From an uncultured Pelagibacteraceae bacterium (GTDB taxonomy: Bacteria > Pseudomonadota > Alphaproteobacteria > Pelagibacterales > Pelagibacteraceae), in assembly GCA_902564565.1 (NCBI GenBank), contig CACFBW010000001.1, positions 124,001 through 188,000 on the forward strand: DNA of 64,000 nucleotides, given 5' to 3'. The notes under the pieces were generated by a model. The model had not been told where the DNA came from, made no database searches, and saw only the letters and a list, made by a program, of their open reading frames with translations. Position numbers and translations under genes: made by a program. Within the stretch, counting starts at the first letter, position 1; each line of letters opens with the position of its first letter. Shown piece by piece: positions 32,378 to 42,695 of the stretch.

Positions 32378-34225
32378 CTAGTATAATTTTGTAAAGCCAA
32401 TTCTAAATTGCCTCCCGTCCTGACTATAAGTTGCAGGTTTTTCATATCTCTCATTGAGTAAATTTGTAAAACTTAGTATAAAAACATTATTAAATTTTTT
32501 TTTTCTTAATGTTAGATCTAACATATCTACACTCTTTACAAATTCATTTTTAGATCCTGTCCAATCAAGATGTTCACCAATATATCTATAATTTAAATTT
32601 AAATTGACAGAACCATAATTTTTTACGTTCAGTTTTTTTTCATAATCAATACCATAAGATAAATCAGGTCTTCTAGAATTTGGCCCCCCAGTGTCTGTTC
32701 GACTTTTAGCGAAATGCGAGGTAATTGAAAATTTTTGATTATCTTTAAAAAATAGATTGATTTCACTCTCAATACCTTCTTGTGTGGTATCTGGAAGTTT
32801 ATTTTCATACCCAGACCAATCTGATTTAATTTTAATTCTATCAGTCATATTTGTTCTATAAAGTGTTGATATAAATTGAAATTTTTCAGTAAAATTATAT
32901 TTAGCATACAACTCATTAGTGCTACTTTTTTCTGGATCAATGCCAGTACTTCCTGAATGCGAGCTCGATGAACCATATAATTCATAAAGACTTGGGTTTT
33001 TCAATCCTGTTGAGCGAGTTAAACCTAATTTTAAATTTTTAAATAGTTGAGTATAGTTAATTTTATATGTTTGATTACCACCAGTTTCTTTGTGATCATC
33101 GTTTCTTAAATGTAATGATAAAGATTGTTTATCATTGAATTTATATCCAGCATTTGAAAAAATACCAAAATTTTTTAAATGTCCTTTTGTTTGCGATGTA
33201 AAGGTAAGTGTTGTGTAGTCACCCCAGTCATATTTATATTCTGCTCCATATCCAAAAGAAAGTTTATCATTAAAAGTCATATCACTTTCAGCCTTTGTGG
33301 TGAGAGACTCGCTGTAATATTTATTTACAGTACCTTGTTCATCATATTTTCTGTCATAGTTATGATAATGAATAATAAAATTATCAAATGAATTATTGGT
33401 GAATCTTTCAAAACCAACCTGCATTGCATACATTTTATTATCTGAAATAACATTTTCTTCAGTTGATGCATTTTTATCATAATCTGACTCAGTATCTCTT
33501 CCATAAAATGTTGACTTAAACTTTAAATTTTCATTTATCCATTTATTACCATTTAAATTAACTTGGTAATTTTGGGTTCCATCTTTTTCTGAACCTTTAG
33601 CAATTGCACTATCAGTTTTCATTTGATTTGAAGCACCTTTAAAATTTAAATGCCAACCATTTTTAGTTATTTTGGTTTGATTGTAGTTAAAAGAGTTGTT
33701 GTTAGCATTAAATCCACTAACCGAATAACTATTGTTATAATCTATATCAGTAACAAAATTTATTGCTCCACCTATAGCATCAGGACCAAAATGAGAACCG
33801 TTTGCTCCTTTGTATATTTCAATCTGTTGAACAGTTTGAATAAAATCTTGTCCAAAGTCATGTATACCATTTGTTGTGGATTGATCATTAATAGGAATAC
33901 CATTTAATAAAACAAGAGTGTGATTTGATTCAGAACCTCTCATGAAAATTGCTCCAGTTTGTCCTTTTTGACCAGACTGATAATAGTCAAGTCCTGGAAT
34001 TAGCTTAAGTAGATCGAATGTATCTTTTGCACCAGTTGCCTCAATTTGTTGTTTATTAAAAACTTTCTTAATAACACTGTCATTATTATAATTTGAAGTA
34101 TTTGAAGTTTTTCTAATTGTTAAACATGAAACACCCTGTCTATTATCCCACTCACAATCATTTAATTTTTCACCATACAAATTTGATATTAGTAATAAAA
34201 AAAATATTGAAGCTCTTAAAAGCAT
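32378..34225 (-). CDS. btuB: TonB-dependent vitamin B12 receptor (BtuB-like)
   Basis: Plug domain (VIKKVFNKQQIEATGAKDTFDLLKLIPGLDYYQSGQKGQTGAIFMRGSESNHTLVLLNGIPINDQ), C-terminal beta-strand ending RQFRIGFTKLY; preceded by a cobalamin riboswitch. Confidence 0.92.
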   Translation of the reverse strand: MLLRASIFFLLLISNLYGEKLNDCEWDNRQGVSCLTIRKTSNTSNYNNDSVIKKVFNKQQIEATGAKDTFDLLKLIPGLDYYQSGQKGQTGAIFMRGSESNHTLVLLNGIPINDQSTTNGIHDFGQDFIQTVQQIEIYKGANGSHFGPDAIGGAINFVTDIDYNNSYSVSGFNANNNSFNYNQTKITKNGWHLNFKGASNQMKTDSAIAKGSEKDGTQNYQVNLNGNKWINENLKFKSTFYGRDTESDYDKNASTEENVISDNKMYAMQVGFERFTNNSFDNFIIHYHNYDRKYDEQGTVNKYYSESLTTKAESDMTFNDKLSFGYGAEYKYDWGDYTTLTFTSQTKGHLKNFGIFSNAGYKFNDKQSLSLHLRNDDHKETGGNQTYKINYTQLFKNLKLGLTRSTGLKNPSLYELYGSSSSHSGSTGIDPEKSSTNELYAKYNFTEKFQFISTLYRTNMTDRIKIKSDWSGYENKLPDTTQEGIESEINLFFKDNQKFSITSHFAKSRTDTGGPNSRRPDLSYGIDYEKKLNVKNYGSVNLNLNYRYIGEHLDWTGSKNEFVKSVDMLDLTLRKKKFNNVFILSFTNLLNERYEKPATYSQDGRQFRIGFTKLY

Positions 34226-34269: not shown

Positions 34270-34430
34270 TTTAATTTATGCCGATGCTAATTTTTCATTG
34301 TAGAACTAGACTTTTCCTGGCCTTCGTTCACAGCGGACTTTACTGGGTGGCGCTCGGGCTTTAACCGTTGCAGGAACAGTCAATGAATTTCACACTGATT
34401 TCCCACCATGCATTTCAGTATTAATTATTT
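34270..34430 (-). promoter_or_regulatory. Cobalamin riboswitch upstream of btuB
   Basis: Minus strand reads ATGCATGGTGGGAAATCAGTGTGAAATTCATTGACTGTTCCTGCAACGGTTAAAGCCCGAGCGCCACCCAG...GGCCAGGAAAAGTC, with GGTGGGAA, GACTGTNCCTGCAACGG, GAGCGCCACC and B12-box-like elements in canonical order. Outer boundaries approximate. Confidence 0.9.
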
Positions 34431-35977: not shown

Positions 35978-36033
35978 TTAATATTTTTCTATACAAAATC
36001 ACGAAATAGTCATACAAAAAAATCAAATCCTTT

Positions 36034-36984
36034 ATGAAGAAATATATTGTCGTAAAAATCGCAAATGGTTTTGGAAATCAAATGTTTTTATATTCTGCAG
36101 CTTATTCTTTTTCAAAAAAAATGGGCTATGAACTCTTAATTGATGATGAAACTGGAATTAATCACGATATTAGAAAATCACAAAAAGTCAAAAGAGCAAA
36201 TTGGAAACCAAAATATGAATTGGATATTTTCACATTATCAGCAAAAATAGCTGAAAATAAGTACAAATTTATCAGTTACAAGGACCATATAAAAAGAAAA
36301 TTTTTAAAATTTACCGATAATTTTTCAAATAAAAAAAAATTTTTAACAGAAAAGTTAGATAATAATAAAAAAACATATTATTCAGATCAATATCTAAATA
36401 ATAAATATGATAATGTCATTTTTTTTGAAGGTTATTTTGAATCAGAAAAATACTTTTACGAACACAAAAAAAATCTTCAAAAAGAATTCAATTTTAAAAA
36501 TTCAATTAACCTTAAAAACAATAAATACTATGACTTAATTTCTAATAATAACGTTGTTTCAATTGCTTTTAGAAGTAGAAGATTTACTGAGACAGAAAAA
36601 GATTTTAAAAATAAAAATATGCAAATTAAAACTGAAAAATTTGAATCTGATACATTAAAATATATATATAGAGGGATTGATTTTTTTAAGTCCAAAATAA
36701 AAAATCCAAAGTTTTTACTTTGGTCTGATAATTTTGAAGGATTAGGGAAGCATTTTGATCCTAAATTTTTTACATATGTAGAAAATGACCCTCAGAACAA
36801 AATCATTTTAGATTTTTCTCTGATGTGTAAATGTAAATATTTCATTGTCGGTTCAACATCTTTTCACTGGTGGTCTGCTTGGCTATGTGACGATGAAAAC
36901 AAAATTATTCTTCGTCCAAAAGATAAGGATTTAAATCTTTCGTGTAATGAAGATTTTTGGCCTGAATCCTGGATTAATATTTAA
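36034..36984 (+). CDS. Alpha-1,2-fucosyltransferase-like glycosyltransferase (GT11)
   Basis: VKIANGFGNQMFLYSAAYSFSKKMGYELLIDD, FEGYFESEKYF, VSIAFRSRRF, CKYFIVGSTSFHWWSAWL. Confidence 0.8.
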   Translation: MKKYIVVKIANGFGNQMFLYSAAYSFSKKMGYELLIDDETGINHDIRKSQKVKRANWKPKYELDIFTLSAKIAENKYKFISYKDHIKRKFLKFTDNFSNKKKFLTEKLDNNKKTYYSDQYLNNKYDNVIFFEGYFESEKYFYEHKKNLQKEFNFKNSINLKNNKYYDLISNNNVVSIAFRSRRFTETEKDFKNKNMQIKTEKFESDTLKYIYRGIDFFKSKIKNPKFLLWSDNFEGLGKHFDPKFFTYVENDPQNKIILDFSLMCKCKYFIVGSTSFHWWSAWLCDDENKIILRPKDKDLNLSCNEDFWPESWINI

Positions 36985-37033
36985 TTGTATTTAATAATGA
37001 TAAAAAATTGTTTATATATAATTAGTTATTAAA

Positions 37034-37720
37034 ATGAAAACTCTTGCACAAATCGGGAAAAAATACCCTACAAGTAAAAATAAAACTGGGTTTATTCCAA
37101 TCTATGAACATTTTCTTGATTCATTACGAGAAAAAGAAATTAACATACTTGAAATAGGTGTGGACCAAGGAGATAGCCTTAGGCTTTGGAGAGACTATTT
37201 TAGTAAAGCAAAAATTTGTGGAATAGATATAGTTAAAAAGGATTTTTCTATTAATAATGTTGAAATTTTATGTGGTGACCAATCTGATTACAACTTTTTA
37301 TCAGAAATTGTAAAAAAATATGGAAAATTTGATATTATAATTGATGATGGAAGTCATGTCTCAAAACATATTATAAGTTCATTTCATTACTTATTTGATT
37401 ATTTAAATGAAAATGGTCTTTATATAATTGAAGATCTACAAACTTCATACATACCTAGATTTGGTGGTAGTCGTTTAAATTTAAATAAAAAAAAAACTTC
37501 TATGAATTTTATCAAAACTTTATCGGATTCAATTAATTATGAACATAATGATAAACCTTTTTTTAAGAAAAGTATTTATGATGGTAAAATTAAATCAGTA
37601 CATTTCTATCAAAATATTTCAATAATTGAAAAAGGGGAGAGTATTAAGTATTTCTACGGAGAAAATCAAAAAATTAAATTTTCTAACAAAATTAAAAAGT
37701 TATTATCTTTATTTTTCTAG
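37034..37720 (+). CDS. Class I SAM-dependent methyltransferase
   Basis: INILEIGVDQGDSLRLWRDYFSKAKICGIDI, FDIIIDDGSHVSKHIISSFHYLFDYLNENGLYIIEDL. Confidence 0.82.
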   Translation: MKTLAQIGKKYPTSKNKTGFIPIYEHFLDSLREKEINILEIGVDQGDSLRLWRDYFSKAKICGIDIVKKDFSINNVEILCGDQSDYNFLSEIVKKYGKFDIIIDDGSHVSKHIISSFHYLFDYLNENGLYIIEDLQTSYIPRFGGSRLNLNKKKTSMNFIKTLSDSINYEHNDKPFFKKSIYDGKIKSVHFYQNISIIEKGESIKYFYGENQKIKFSNKIKKLLSLFF

Positions 37721-38638
37721 TTAAATTTTAATCTTGTTTAAAGCGTTGTTTTTAAATAAATTTGCTTCTTGTATGTATCTTCTTACCATCTGAGTTGTTT
37801 TATGACCAGTCATAGCCATTATGTTGCGTTCTTCAGCTCCAGATTCCGCAGTTGATGTTGCAAACCCTGATCTTAGGCTATGGCCTCCATATTTGTTTGG
37901 ATCTAATCCACAAAATGACGCATATTTTTTAATTATTAGTGCTATGCTTTTATCCGAAATATCAAATATTTTTCCTGATTTATTTTTTGTATAATTTATC
38001 CAGTTTTTTAAATTTGTTACTGGGCAAAATTCTTTATTATCAAAGTAGGGTATTGCTTTAGTCATTCCTTCGCCAGATTGATCAGTTTTTGATCTTTTAA
38101 CAAAGATTTTTAAACCTTCATTTACAAATTCAACATCTTCATGGTCTATATTGACAAGTTCTGACCTTCTAAAACCACCTGAAAATCCTACTAATATAAT
38201 TGCTTTATCTCTAATTTTTTTATTTTCTGATTGTTTAAATTGATCTATCGCATTAATTATTAATTTTAAGTCATTGATTAATATAGGTTTTTTTGCTTTT
38301 TGATTGCTACCTTTAACCCTTTTAATTCCATGTAAATTCTCCATTATTATAGGATGTTTTGTGTCGAGGTAATGACCTTTTATCTTATGAATAACGCTTA
38401 TTGAAGCTATTCTTCTTTTTAAAGTGCTAAATTTTGAGCTAGCAGATAAATGAGTTAGATAAATAGACAGAACTTTTGGCTCTGTAGGCATTGAACATAA
38501 TCCATTCTTAGTACAAAATCCTGCAAAATCTTTAAAATCTGCCTTATAAGCTCTTAGAGTATTAGCAGCTTTCGAATTCTTTAAATTTTTTAAAGTTTCT
38601 AACTCAAGGCTTTTTAAGTCAGTTGTTAGTTCATTCAT
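37721..38638 (-). CDS. Tyrosine-type site-specific recombinase (Cre-like/phage integrase family)
   Basis: GFSGGFRRSELVNID (catalytic R), SKTDQSGEG, GGHSLRSGFAT (HxLR), TGHKTTQMVRRYI (H...Y). Confidence 0.93.
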   Translation of the reverse strand: MNELTTDLKSLELETLKNLKNSKAANTLRAYKADFKDFAGFCTKNGLCSMPTEPKVLSIYLTHLSASSKFSTLKRRIASISVIHKIKGHYLDTKHPIIMENLHGIKRVKGSNQKAKKPILINDLKLIINAIDQFKQSENKKIRDKAIILVGFSGGFRRSELVNIDHEDVEFVNEGLKIFVKRSKTDQSGEGMTKAIPYFDNKEFCPVTNLKNWINYTKNKSGKIFDISDKSIALIIKKYASFCGLDPNKYGGHSLRSGFATSTAESGAEERNIMAMTGHKTTQMVRRYIQEANLFKNNALNKIKI

Positions 38639-38643
38639 TGTAT

Positions 38644-38670
38644 TTTCCGATAACCATTAATTATCGGAAA
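38644..38670. repeat. Perfect 10-7-10 inverted repeat (candidate recombinase core/operator site)
   Basis: TTTCCGATAA-CCATTAA-TTATCGGAAA, starting 6 nt upstream of the recombinase start codon. Confidence 0.85.
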
Positions 38671-38779
38671 TTATATAATAAGCAAAAATAAATGTCAATA
38701 TTAAAATTTTGAAAATAATCATAAATGTTATACCCGTAATCCACAGCTGTGAGAAACTGAATCAATCAATTATAAAGTG

Positions 38780-39004
38780 ATACATACAACCATTGCACTC
38801 TGATAGTCTGATAAATGAATTAAGGGGCAACCCTTAACTGGCCGATTGGGGAAAAACCGAGAGGTTCAAGCCCAGGGGGCAGAAAGTTCTGCGGAGTAGC
38901 GCTAAAATCGCGGAGCGGAAGGCATGGCGGTAGCGCATACAACGACGTGCCAAAACTACTGTTCTTTGTGCCGTAAAAAGCACAAGGAAACAGGGGTTTT
39001 TTTT
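38780..39004 (+). ncRNA. Putative GC-rich structured RNA of unknown family, ending in a Rho-independent terminator
   Basis: Hand count 95/180 G+C over 38821-39000 versus AT-rich surroundings; hairpins TTAAGGG-GCAA-CCCTTAA (38820-38837), GCAGA-AAGT-TCTGC (38879-38892), GCGCT...AGCGC (38899-38936), terminal hairpin plus T8. 5' end is a guess. Confidence 0.55.
38959..39004 (+). terminator. Rho-independent terminator
   Basis: CTGTTCTTTGTGC-CGTAAAAA-GCACAAGGaAACAG followed by GGG and T8 (38997-39004), just before the ogt start. Confidence 0.8.
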
Positions 39005-39010
39005 CTATTT

Positions 39011-39286
39011 ATGATCTTAAAAGGTACTAAATTTCAAATAAAAGTTTGGAAATATCTCAAAACTATACCTAAAGGTAAGGTAAAAACCTATAAAGAGGTA
39101 GCTATTGGCATAAATAGCCCTAAATCAGCAAGAGCAGTGGCTAATGCATGTGGTAAGAACCCCTATGCTCCTAAAGTACCATGTCATAGAGTTATAAGAT
39201 CCGATGGTAGCCTAGGTGGTTTTTCTGCTGCTGGAGGAACAGAAGCCAAGAAAATGTTACTAAAAAAAGAAGGTTTTTTGCTCTAA
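39011..39286 (+). CDS. ogt: MGMT family methylated-DNA--[protein]-cysteine S-methyltransferase; start at internal ATG
   Basis: MILKGTKFQIKVWKYLKTIPKGKVKTYKEVA, PCHRVIRSDGSLGGF active-site motif. ORF-track start (38924) lies inside the GC-rich RNA candidate. Confidence 0.9.
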   Translation: MILKGTKFQIKVWKYLKTIPKGKVKTYKEVAIGINSPKSARAVANACGKNPYAPKVPCHRVIRSDGSLGGFSAAGGTEAKKMLLKKEGFLL

Positions 39287-39649
39287 AAGTTAGGAATACC
39301 AACATTTTTTTACTTCTAGACCCCTTTTCCTTTGATATTTTTATTTTCTCCCTTCAGTTGTACTCAATATAACCATATCGTTAAATATAACACTTCTTTG
39401 GGCGTTTAATCGCTATATTCCTTTTATGCAAACCTCTAGAATTTTATCCTATCAGCACTTATTTCGTACTTTAAAAACAGTTATTTTTTTTAGTATTTTA
39501 TCTAATTTTAATTTTGTTTATTATTTAAGTGTCAATTTTAATAGTTTATACCTGAATAAATATTAACTTAATAAATTACCTTAAGTTTTTTAAAATATAC
39601 AATGATATCAGTACATTAGACAATTAAATTAATGTATTAGATTAATATA

Positions 39650-40498
39650 TTAGTTAGGTCTATTTAGGGCCTCTCTCCTGAATATATAAATACCAGATGA
39701 GATGATTATGAACAATCCTATGAAGGTCCAGTTATCTGGGAAGTGACTAAAGAAGTAATAACCTATTATAATGTTAGTAATAATCTCAAAATAACCAAAA
39801 GGAGCAAGTTTTGAGGCATCAGCATACTTTAAGGAAAGTATTAAAAATAAATGACCTATTGATGCAAAAAAACCTATAGCAAACATCATGTACCACTCTG
39901 TAATAGTTGGTTGAACCCAAACAGAAGGTACAATCATCGATCCGATGATGCCCCCTACTACACCTGTTAGTAAAAGAGTTAATAGAGGATGATCAGACTT
40001 ATGTAACTTTTTTGTTACAATTAGATAAAAACCATACAAAACACCTGTTCCTAAAGCTGCAATACTTGCTAAATTAATTTCAACAAAACCCGGTCTCAAA
40101 ACAATTAAAGATCCAATAAATCCAACAATAACAGCTGCCCATCTTCTAATGCCTACTTTTTCACCTAAAAAAATTGGAGACAAAATAGTAACTATTAATG
40201 GAGCAATAAAAGCTAACGTTAAAGCTTTTGCTAAAGATATAACCGATATTGAATAAAAAAATAAAATATTGGCACAAAATAATAGTAAACCCCTAATTAA
40301 TTGAAGTTTGGGTTGTTCCGTCCATTTAAAATTTTTCCTAAAAAAAATTAACATGATTGGTAAAGCAATTACAACAGTAAAAAAATATCTAGACCAAGTA
40401 ATTTGTAATACAGGAATTGTTGTACTTAAATATTTAGCAAAGCCATCCATTATGGGTAGCATTACCCATGCTAACAAGTTTAGTATTATTGCTTTCAT
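39650..40498 (-). CDS. EamA/DMT family transporter
   Basis: 10-TM protein with internal duplication; AFIAPLIVTILSPIFLGEKVG. Confidence 0.88.
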   Translation of the reverse strand: MKAIILNLLAWVMLPIMDGFAKYLSTTIPVLQITWSRYFFTVVIALPIMLIFFRKNFKWTEQPKLQLIRGLLLFCANILFFYSISVISLAKALTLAFIAPLIVTILSPIFLGEKVGIRRWAAVIVGFIGSLIVLRPGFVEINLASIAALGTGVLYGFYLIVTKKLHKSDHPLLTLLLTGVVGGIIGSMIVPSVWVQPTITEWYMMFAIGFFASIGHLFLILSLKYADASKLAPFGYFEIITNIIIGYYFFSHFPDNWTFIGLFIIISSGIYIFRREALNRPN

Positions 40499-40504
40499 TA
40501 AAAT

Positions 40505-41404
40505 TTAAAAAAAATACTTTAATGAAATAAACACTATAATTGGTATAGTTACAAATGATAGAAGAGTAGAAACAACAATCATGCTAGCAATATTATCAAC
40601 AATTTTTTTAGGTGAATACATTGATCCAACTAAATATGTTAACACTGCGCTAGGCATTGAACATTGTATTAATAAAACACCAGCAGCATAACCGTTTAAA
40701 TTAAAAAATTTAATAATTCCAAAGCCAATAACGGGTCCAAATACTACTCTTCCTATAGAAGAAATTAATGCTTTATTAAAAGAAAAAACCTTAAGTCTAG
40801 TTAAAGCAATGCCTAAAGACATTAAAATTAAAAAAATTGTGGCATATGTTAGTAACATAGTTGTATTAATAACAAAATTTGGTGCCTCAATATCAAAATA
40901 AAGAAATAATACAGATATTAAAACTGCATAAAACGAAGGGCTTTTTATAATCACATTAAAATTAAATTTTTTACTAGCAAGAAAAACACCTAGAGTAAAA
41001 TGAAATAAAATTATTAACGAAGATATAGCACCAGCGACACCAAGACCTTGAGATCCATAAGCAAATAAACAAATGGGAAGGCCCATATTTCCTGTATTTG
41101 GTAGAATAAATGGTGGTAGTTCCATTACAATATCTTTTTTTAATATTGAAAGGAAAATAATTCCAACGATAGAAAAACCCATAATTGCTAAAAGATAATA
41201 CCCAAAATAAGATTTAAAAACTTCAAAAGTTAAACCGGTAGTAGCAACTGCGTAAAAAATAATAGCAGGCGAACCAATATTTGCACCAAAGTTAGTTATA
41301 AATGATGTGTCTAAATTTGGGTTTTTTTTTCCTAAATAATAACCAATACCTACAACAAAAAAAACAGGAAAAAGAACTTCAAATAACTTGATATAAATTT
41401 CCAT
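40505..41404 (-). CDS. AEC family (auxin efflux carrier-like) transporter
   Basis: Multi-TM; LPNTGNMGLPICLFAYG, LLIQCSMPSAVLTYLVG motifs. Confidence 0.87.
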   Translation of the reverse strand: MEIYIKLFEVLFPVFFVVGIGYYLGKKNPNLDTSFITNFGANIGSPAIIFYAVATTGLTFEVFKSYFGYYLLAIMGFSIVGIIFLSILKKDIVMELPPFILPNTGNMGLPICLFAYGSQGLGVAGAISSLIILFHFTLGVFLASKKFNFNVIIKSPSFYAVLISVLFLYFDIEAPNFVINTTMLLTYATIFLILMSLGIALTRLKVFSFNKALISSIGRVVFGPVIGFGIIKFFNLNGYAAGVLLIQCSMPSAVLTYLVGSMYSPKKIVDNIASMIVVSTLLSFVTIPIIVFISLKYFF

Positions 41405-41405
41405 A

Positions 41406-42695
41406 TTACAGAAGTCTAATCAAGATAGGGTTTTTTAATATATTTTTGTTTGACCTTATTGATTTAATGCATTTTTGCGCATTATACTCATTAGCTTTAT
41501 GAGTAATAATAACTATAGAAGCTGTTTTTCTTTTATGGTCAGGTATTTGTATCAATCTTTCTACAGAAATTTTTCTTTTAGCTAATTGTTTAGTTATTTG
41601 AGAAAGAACACCAGGCTTATCCTTTACTTCAAATCTTAAATATAAAGAATTCGAATATTGATCGACATTATAAACAAGTGGAATTTTTCTTTTAATATTA
41701 GGTAAGCCAAATGGATATTTAATATTGCCTCTCAAAATTGATAAAAAGTCTGACATTAAAGCAGAAGATGTGGCTCCGGGGCCAGCACCTTCACCTTGTA
41801 AAATACTTTCACCAATTGGGTATCCATGAACAATAACTGCATTCATTACTCCATTAACATTACCAATATAACTGTCTTTTTTAACTAAACATGGATGAAC
41901 TCTTTCAAATAATTTATTATTAATTAGTTCAGTAATACCAAGTAATTTAATTCTAAAATTTAATTGATTAGCTATATCAATATCTTTGTAATCAATGTTT
42001 TCAATTCCTTCCATTAAACATTTTTTATTGGAAATTTTTTTATTAAATGAAAGTGATGATAGTATTCTTACTTTAGCAAATGCGTCATATCCATTTAAAT
42101 CAAGTTTAGGATTTCCAGGTTCGGCATAGCCTAAAAGCTGAGCTTTTTTTAGTACATTAGAAAATGTATTTTTGGATGTTTCCATTTCAGACAAAATATA
42201 ATTACAAGTTCCATTTAAAATTCCATATACTTTAGTGATTTTATTTGTAGCTAAACCTTCTTTAATAGTTCTTAGAATTGGTATTCCTCCTGCTACAGAT
42301 GCCTCAAATTCTAAATTAACTTTATTTTTTTCTGCAAGTTTGGCCAAATAGTCACCATGTTTAGCAATAAGAGCCTTGTTAGGTGTAATAACGTGAATTT
42401 TTTTTTTTAAAGAAAGTTCTACGACTTTTTTTGATACACCGTCTGAGTAACCAATCGCTTCGAATAAAATATCGACATTGGTTTTTTTAATTATATCTAC
42501 CGGATTTTTATAAAAAATATTTTTATTTATTTTAAATTTTCTTTTTTTCTTAGGATTCTTTGCCGATATTGCTATTATTTTAATTTTTTTACCAGTTTTT
42601 AATTCAATATCTTTTTTTTTAGTATTCAATTCATTTAATAAATAGTTTCCTATTTGTCCTAGTCCAACTACAGCTATATTAACATTTTTTTTCAT
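41406..42695 (-). CDS. hom: Homoserine dehydrogenase
   Basis: VAVVGLGQIGNYL-type N-terminus, VTPNKALIAKHG, GGIPILRTIKEGLATNKITKVYGILNGTCNYIL, C-terminal ACT domain. Confidence 0.95.
   Translation of the reverse strand: MKKNVNIAVVGLGQIGNYLLNELNTKKKDIELKTGKKIKIIAISAKNPKKKRKFKINKNIFYKNPVDIIKKTNVDILFEAIGYSDGVSKKVVELSLKKKIHVITPNKALIAKHGDYLAKLAEKNKVNLEFEASVAGGIPILRTIKEGLATNKITKVYGILNGTCNYILSEMETSKNTFSNVLKKAQLLGYAEPGNPKLDLNGYDAFAKVRILSSLSFNKKISNKKCLMEGIENIDYKDIDIANQLNFRIKLLGITELINNKLFERVHPCLVKKDSYIGNVNGVMNAVIVHGYPIGESILQGEGAGPGATSSALMSDFLSILRGNIKYPFGLPNIKRKIPLVYNVDQYSNSLYLRFEVKDKPGVLSQITKQLAKRKISVERLIQIPDHKRKTASIVIITHKANEYNAQKCIKSIRSNKNILKNPILIRLL

Follow-up and report, generated by a model that had tools for sequence, protein, structure and literature searches.

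The window (the 64,000-nt stretch of Pelagibacteraceae DNA analysed here) contains an inverted repeat just upstream of a gene for a tyrosine recombinase (Table 1). The repeat reads TTTCCGATAA-CCATTAA-TTATCGGAAA on the forward strand. On the strand of the recombinase it is TTTCCGATAA-TTAATGG-TTATCGGAAA, or TTTCCGATAATTAATGGTTATCGGAAA as a whole, and belongs to class I as defined below. A preliminary description of this DNA had reported a 10-7-10 inverted repeat here, 6 nt from the start of the recombinase. We confirmed that both arms are perfect, that the spacer is 7 nt, and that the repeat is next to the start codon (38638, minus strand), but only 5 nt, not 6, separate the two.

Table 1. Features at and around the inverted repeat (positions in the window)
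Feature	Position	Strand	Description
Single tyrosine recombinase, 305 aa	37721..38638	-	Pfam PF00589, 67 bits
dif-like recombination site (candidate)	38644..38670		Two 10-bp arms, 7-bp centre; class I
Sigma-70 promoter of recombinase	38670..38698	-	Perfect (12/12) TTGACA-N17-TATAAT; -35 and -10 conserved across the genus
IMES-2 RNA (RF02035)	38813..38953	+	160.9 bits; in most relatives next to the module and divergent from it
Replication terminus	36000..42000		Cumulative GC skew of the window peaks at 39294

We found that the repeat is unique. The preliminary description had raised the prospect of a second copy elsewhere in the genome. There was none within the window at up to 3 mismatches (0.01 expected by chance), and there was no further copy in the 1.06 Mb, 34-contig assembly. 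The recombinase was likewise the only match to PF00589 in this genome. A unique, intergenic and palindromic site with a centre in the range of 6-8 bp is what is seen with chromosomal dif sites of Xer systems.

The repeat is joined to the promoter of the recombinase gene. The -10 box and the repeat share one base. Because the -10 box of this 12/12 promoter overlaps the repeat, the predicted transcription start is inside the repeat. The repeat strand also folds as an RNA hairpin (z = -3.6). The neighbouring IMES-2 RNA was single-copy in 30/30 genomes where it was detected and was 0.2-0.9 kb upstream of the recombinase, in divergent orientation, at the 74 loci measured. We know of no function assigned to this RNA motif. 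A link to the terminus/Xer locus described below is possible, but so is mere synteny. Elsewhere in the window, an AdoCbl-II (cobalamin) riboswitch (34340-34421, minus strand) is directly upstream of a TonB-dependent-receptor-like gene (32378-34225).

The recombinase has the conserved R-K-H-R-H/W-Y residues of a tyrosine recombinase: the catalytic residues R157, K184, H253, R256, H279 and Y288 are invariant across 134 orthologues. In a structure model of moderate confidence (mean pLDDT 73.6), the closest solved fold was that of Cre, followed by XerH and XerA. The label 'Cre-like' in the preliminary description was therefore apt. The protein is not a XerC, XerD or XerS. It missed all three NCBIfam cut-offs widely, scoring 73.7 bits (cut-off 329.6) and 68.9 bits (335.15) against the XerC and XerD models and 60.2 bits against XerS (267). 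Together with plasmid-borne relatives (see below), the SAR11 recombinases cluster apart from XerC/XerD with 100/100 support; the tree does not resolve the branching inside this joint clade.

Most genomes of the genus contain one tyrosine recombinase. In two genomes that are at least 90% complete (G056:C7:21360-21830 and G039:C72:104339-104761), the orthologue is absent and the sole tyrosine recombinase is a different one, in a 464-aa frame. This protein may be a replacement or a separate integrase.

We found that the repeat is conserved together with the recombinase. An orthologue that is about 61-100% identical is present in most genomes of the genus. In a set of 134 distinct recombinases with 60-100% identity, every one had the site upstream, in nearly all cases no more than 15 nt before the start. 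The preliminary description had named a lack of the repeat upstream of orthologues as evidence against its proposal, and the result was decisively the opposite. The sites fall into two classes, TTCCGATAA-TTAATGG-TTATCGGAA (class I) and TTACTAnyGATAA-TTAATkG-TTATCAATAGTAA (class II). The core GATAATTAATkGTTATC is near-invariant, and the sequence beyond the site and the promoter drifts. Differences between the classes in the arms are mostly two-sided (outer pair 1 changes from C:G to T:A, and pair 3 from T:A to A:T), as expected if two molecules of a single protein bind the site. For a dif centre, the 7 bp show unusually strong conservation, and this could reflect a role in the promoter or leader.

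The core motif was found in 170 of the 250 genomes searched, normally as one exact copy. Among near-complete genomes it was present in 32/37; its absence from about five is somewhat above what missing assembly predicts. Cores with one mismatch recur in relatives (GATAATTAATGGTTTTC and GATAATTAATGCTTATC). We found no other conserved site in the genome. Genes upstream of the module are syntenic across genomes, and the downstream flank is variable.

The module is located at the replication terminus. In the window, cumulative GC skew reaches its maximum 0.6 kb away from the site, and gene orientation changes there, from mostly plus on the left to mostly minus on the right. The terminus was tested on stretches of sequence (20 kb in 20 genomes and 300 kb in two). 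Two genomes of the genus are single contigs of 1.34 and 1.44 Mb; in these, the skew maximum of a contiguous 300 kb was 1.8 and 1.1 kb from the site, and coarse sampling of the whole chromosomes put the skew minimum roughly opposite the site. The skew fell across the site (left greater than right) in 20/20 genomes, compared to 54% of 39 control stretches. Skew in any single genome is noisy, and in 5/20 genomes over 8 kb separated the site from the maximum of the 20-kb stretch. Among the 20-kb regions, five (L120, L122, L123, L125 and L127) have AEC, homDH and argC, which are usually upstream, inverted across the module. This arrangement suggests inversions around the terminus.

We found neither XerC nor XerD in the genus. 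Genomes of the sister family that were tested encode both XerD (~320 bits) and XerC (~250 bits). Within the genus, the only consistent match was the recombinase of the module, at ~70 bits to the XerD model. The translocase FtsK was present in 18/18 near-complete genomes of the genus; no FtsK (PF01580) was found in the source genome, which is 84.8% complete. FtsK of the genus (G012, G082 and other genomes) is ~695 aa with an FtsK_SpoIIIE domain of ~561 nt; the corresponding figures for the sister family, which has XerCD (G121-G128), are ~760 aa and 660 nt. FtsK may have changed together with the switch of recombinase.

The best annotated relatives of the recombinase (35-41% identity) are encoded on plasmids of Alicyclobacillus, Sporosarcina, Protochlamydia, Iodobacter and others, where they are labelled 'site-specific integrases'. 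Several are beside partition or toxin-antitoxin genes. We found a YGATAA-N6/7-TTATCR palindrome within 800 bp upstream of the gene in 7/14 of these relatives (0.01 expected). The palindromes were 35 to 770 bp from the gene; that of Alicyclobacillus dauci, ACTTCCGATAA-TTTAACG-TTATCAGAAGT, is centred 36 bp before it. The other seven plasmids had no YGATAA-type site within 800 bp upstream, and one of them, from Rickettsiales Ac37b, has a related CGACAA..TTGTCG palindrome. The plasmid recombinases are like those of SAR11 in the palindrome upstream, but differ in their plasmid location, the variable distance to the gene and the unrelated centres. Arms that are common across phyla around a centre that varies are the behaviour of a recombinase recognition site. 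In its family, the SAR11 module seems to have taken the place of XerC/XerD, and its apparent ancestors are multimer-resolution cassettes of plasmids.

Copies of the site are also present in SAR11 phages. Scanning viral contigs for the core yielded 29 matching stretches, and none of these contigs encoded the recombinase of the module. The site was upstream of terL in all 17 stretches in which terL could be identified. In 14 of them the distance was 334-487 bp, and in the other three it was 1.1-1.2 kb. A second site, of the other class, was adjacent or overlapping in 13/29, with conserved arms and a different centre. The terminases of the site-bearing contigs match those of SAR11 phage isolates of the HTVC106P and HTVC010P type. 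Pelagiphages of this type belong to the most abundant marine viruses. Phage sites with 6- or 8-bp centres are missed by a PWM of fixed spacing, and the arms were rescored with a free spacer. A class I or class II arm pair then scored better than all 30 shuffles of the same stretch in 8/12 isolates (HTVC106P, HTVC024P, HTVC010P, Greip, HTVC035P, HTVC034P, HTVC100P and Lederberg), in some with several mismatches. A tyrosine recombinase was absent from 11/12 isolates. The exception, HTVC028P, has an integrase, and no such site was found in it.

We searched 399 SAR11 genomes for terL and found no prophage at the site. The sole terL-positive genome (G257:C20:1083-13375; L305, L306) has two equal-scoring terL genes in opposite orientation on one phage-like contig, and this contig has no site. 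We read it as a co-captured phage, possibly with an amplification chimera.

It seems somewhat better than an even bet that pelagiphages of the HTVC010P/HTVC106P type, most of which lack an integrase, parasitise the single Xer recombinase of the host by means of these copies. Class I and class II mimics are side by side in many of the phages, so hosts of either class could serve. Circularisation of the genome or resolution of multimers would be the likeliest use, because most phage centres differ from the host centre and no prophage was found at the site. Use of the site in the lytic cycle seems likelier than lysogeny, and integration at the host dif is possible for phages with the matching TTAATTG centre. 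In phage P1, loxP serves circularisation of the phage and resolution of plasmid dimers.

Based on these results we suggest that Pelagibacter (SAR11) has an Xer-type system with a single recombinase, and that the repeat is the chromosomal dif of this system, fused to the promoter of the recombinase. We put the probability of this reading at roughly 0.87. The preliminary description had proposed that the repeat could be the enzyme's own crossover site, with the architecture of loxP and dif, and this is strongly supported. It had brought up dif solely for the similar architecture, and the option with the best support is now that of a chromosomal dif at the terminus of replication. We infer from the sequences that each arm would be occupied by one monomer of the recombinase, whose gene starts 5 nt from the site. 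If the two sister chromosomes have become joined through an odd number of crossovers, the enzyme would synapse their two copies of the site at the septum and cleave them, and strand exchange across the 7-bp centre would turn the dimer into monomers. FtsK would probably bring the two sites together. The bound enzyme would also be expected to repress its own gene, as the promoter's start point and the border of its -10 box both lie within the site.

The overlap with a perfect promoter, and the conservation of promoter and repeat as a whole, might also indicate that the repeat is an operator only, at which the recombinase or another repressor shuts the promoter while recombination takes place elsewhere. 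We consider this unlikely. The module is at the skew turnover in all genomes tested, the phage copies are upstream of terL with no recombinase gene nearby, the plasmid repeat may be as far as 770 bp upstream (and as near as 35 bp), and the genome has yielded no alternative conserved site at which the enzyme might act. The autoregulatory operator of the preliminary description is plausible as a second role for a site on a promoter, but unlikely as its sole function. It is very improbable that the repeat instead acts as an RNA hairpin in the 5' leader of the recombinase transcript, controlling stability or translation. The strand does fold, and compensatory changes in the arms would suit RNA too. 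However, a start inside the repeat, as predicted, would leave most of the 5' arm out of the transcript. Conservation of the spacer equals that of the arms, and copies are found in intergenic phage DNA and far upstream of plasmid genes.

The preliminary description had also suggested the boundary of a self-excising element. There is exactly one exact copy of the site per genome, and no second copy flanks any segment, which argues against a boundary or attachment site of an integrative or self-excising element that carries the recombinase. The orthologue is in most genomes of the genus with syntenic genes upstream. A gene of the phage-integrase family beside a core-type site, with a variable flank downstream, is what would favour such an element, but the single copy, vertical inheritance and one-sided synteny have already largely refuted it, and we give it very little weight.

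We compared the module with known systems. Cre/loxP of phage P1 is like the SAR11 module in having one enzyme, symmetric arms and a short asymmetric centre, in addition to the best match of fold. However, the identity to Cre is only about 17%, and loxP is a 13-8-13 site whereas the SAR11 site is 10-7-10, chromosomal and at the terminus. XerS/difSL of streptococci and lactococci is a single recombinase with a linked site (PMC5357621). As in SAR11, the gene of this single tyrosine recombinase adjoins the site at the terminus, and the left arm of difSL, TTTCCGAAAA, resembles SAR11 TTTCCGATAA (PMC5357621). In contrast, XerS is longer (356 aa), and the arms of difSL are unequal and separated by an 11-bp centre; symmetric arms flank a 7-bp centre in the SAR11 site, which overlaps the promoter. 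XerH/difH of Campylobacter and Helicobacter also has a single recombinase, with a site that is usually gene-linked and near the GC-skew maximum (PMC2731167), as in SAR11. XerH differs in its length (353-363 aa, compared to 305 aa) and in its site (TGAAAAC..TTTTCAAA rather than GATAA..TTATC), and the sequence similarity is weak. XerL/dif of Legionellales is a single-recombinase system in bacteria thought to be without dif/Xer, and was revealed by mobile elements that mimic dif (PMC9765430). That system is from a different lineage, and we liken it to the SAR11 module by description, in its history of discovery: both were missed by homology. The SAR11 module would add one more system with a single recombinase, apparently of plasmid/Cre-like descent and with a site that doubles as part of a promoter. 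By analogy, it should work like the XerS, XerH and XerL systems.

A survey by Carnoy and Roten in 2009 described Pelagibacter as free-living bacteria without dif/Xer, which was lost through genome streamlining (PMC2731167). This negative statement was the only literature that we found on dif or Xer in SAR11. Our results contradict it for the genus; strain HTCC1062 is outside their scope. SAR11 are the most abundant bacteria of the ocean. The sequence evidence indicates that Pelagibacter exchanged XerCD for a one-gene, one-site cassette of the plasmid type, with dif inside the gene's own promoter. The finding gives a locus for the replication terminus of SAR11, a testable pair of enzyme and site with two naturally diverged specificities, and a starting point for studying how pelagiphages without an integrase process their genomes.
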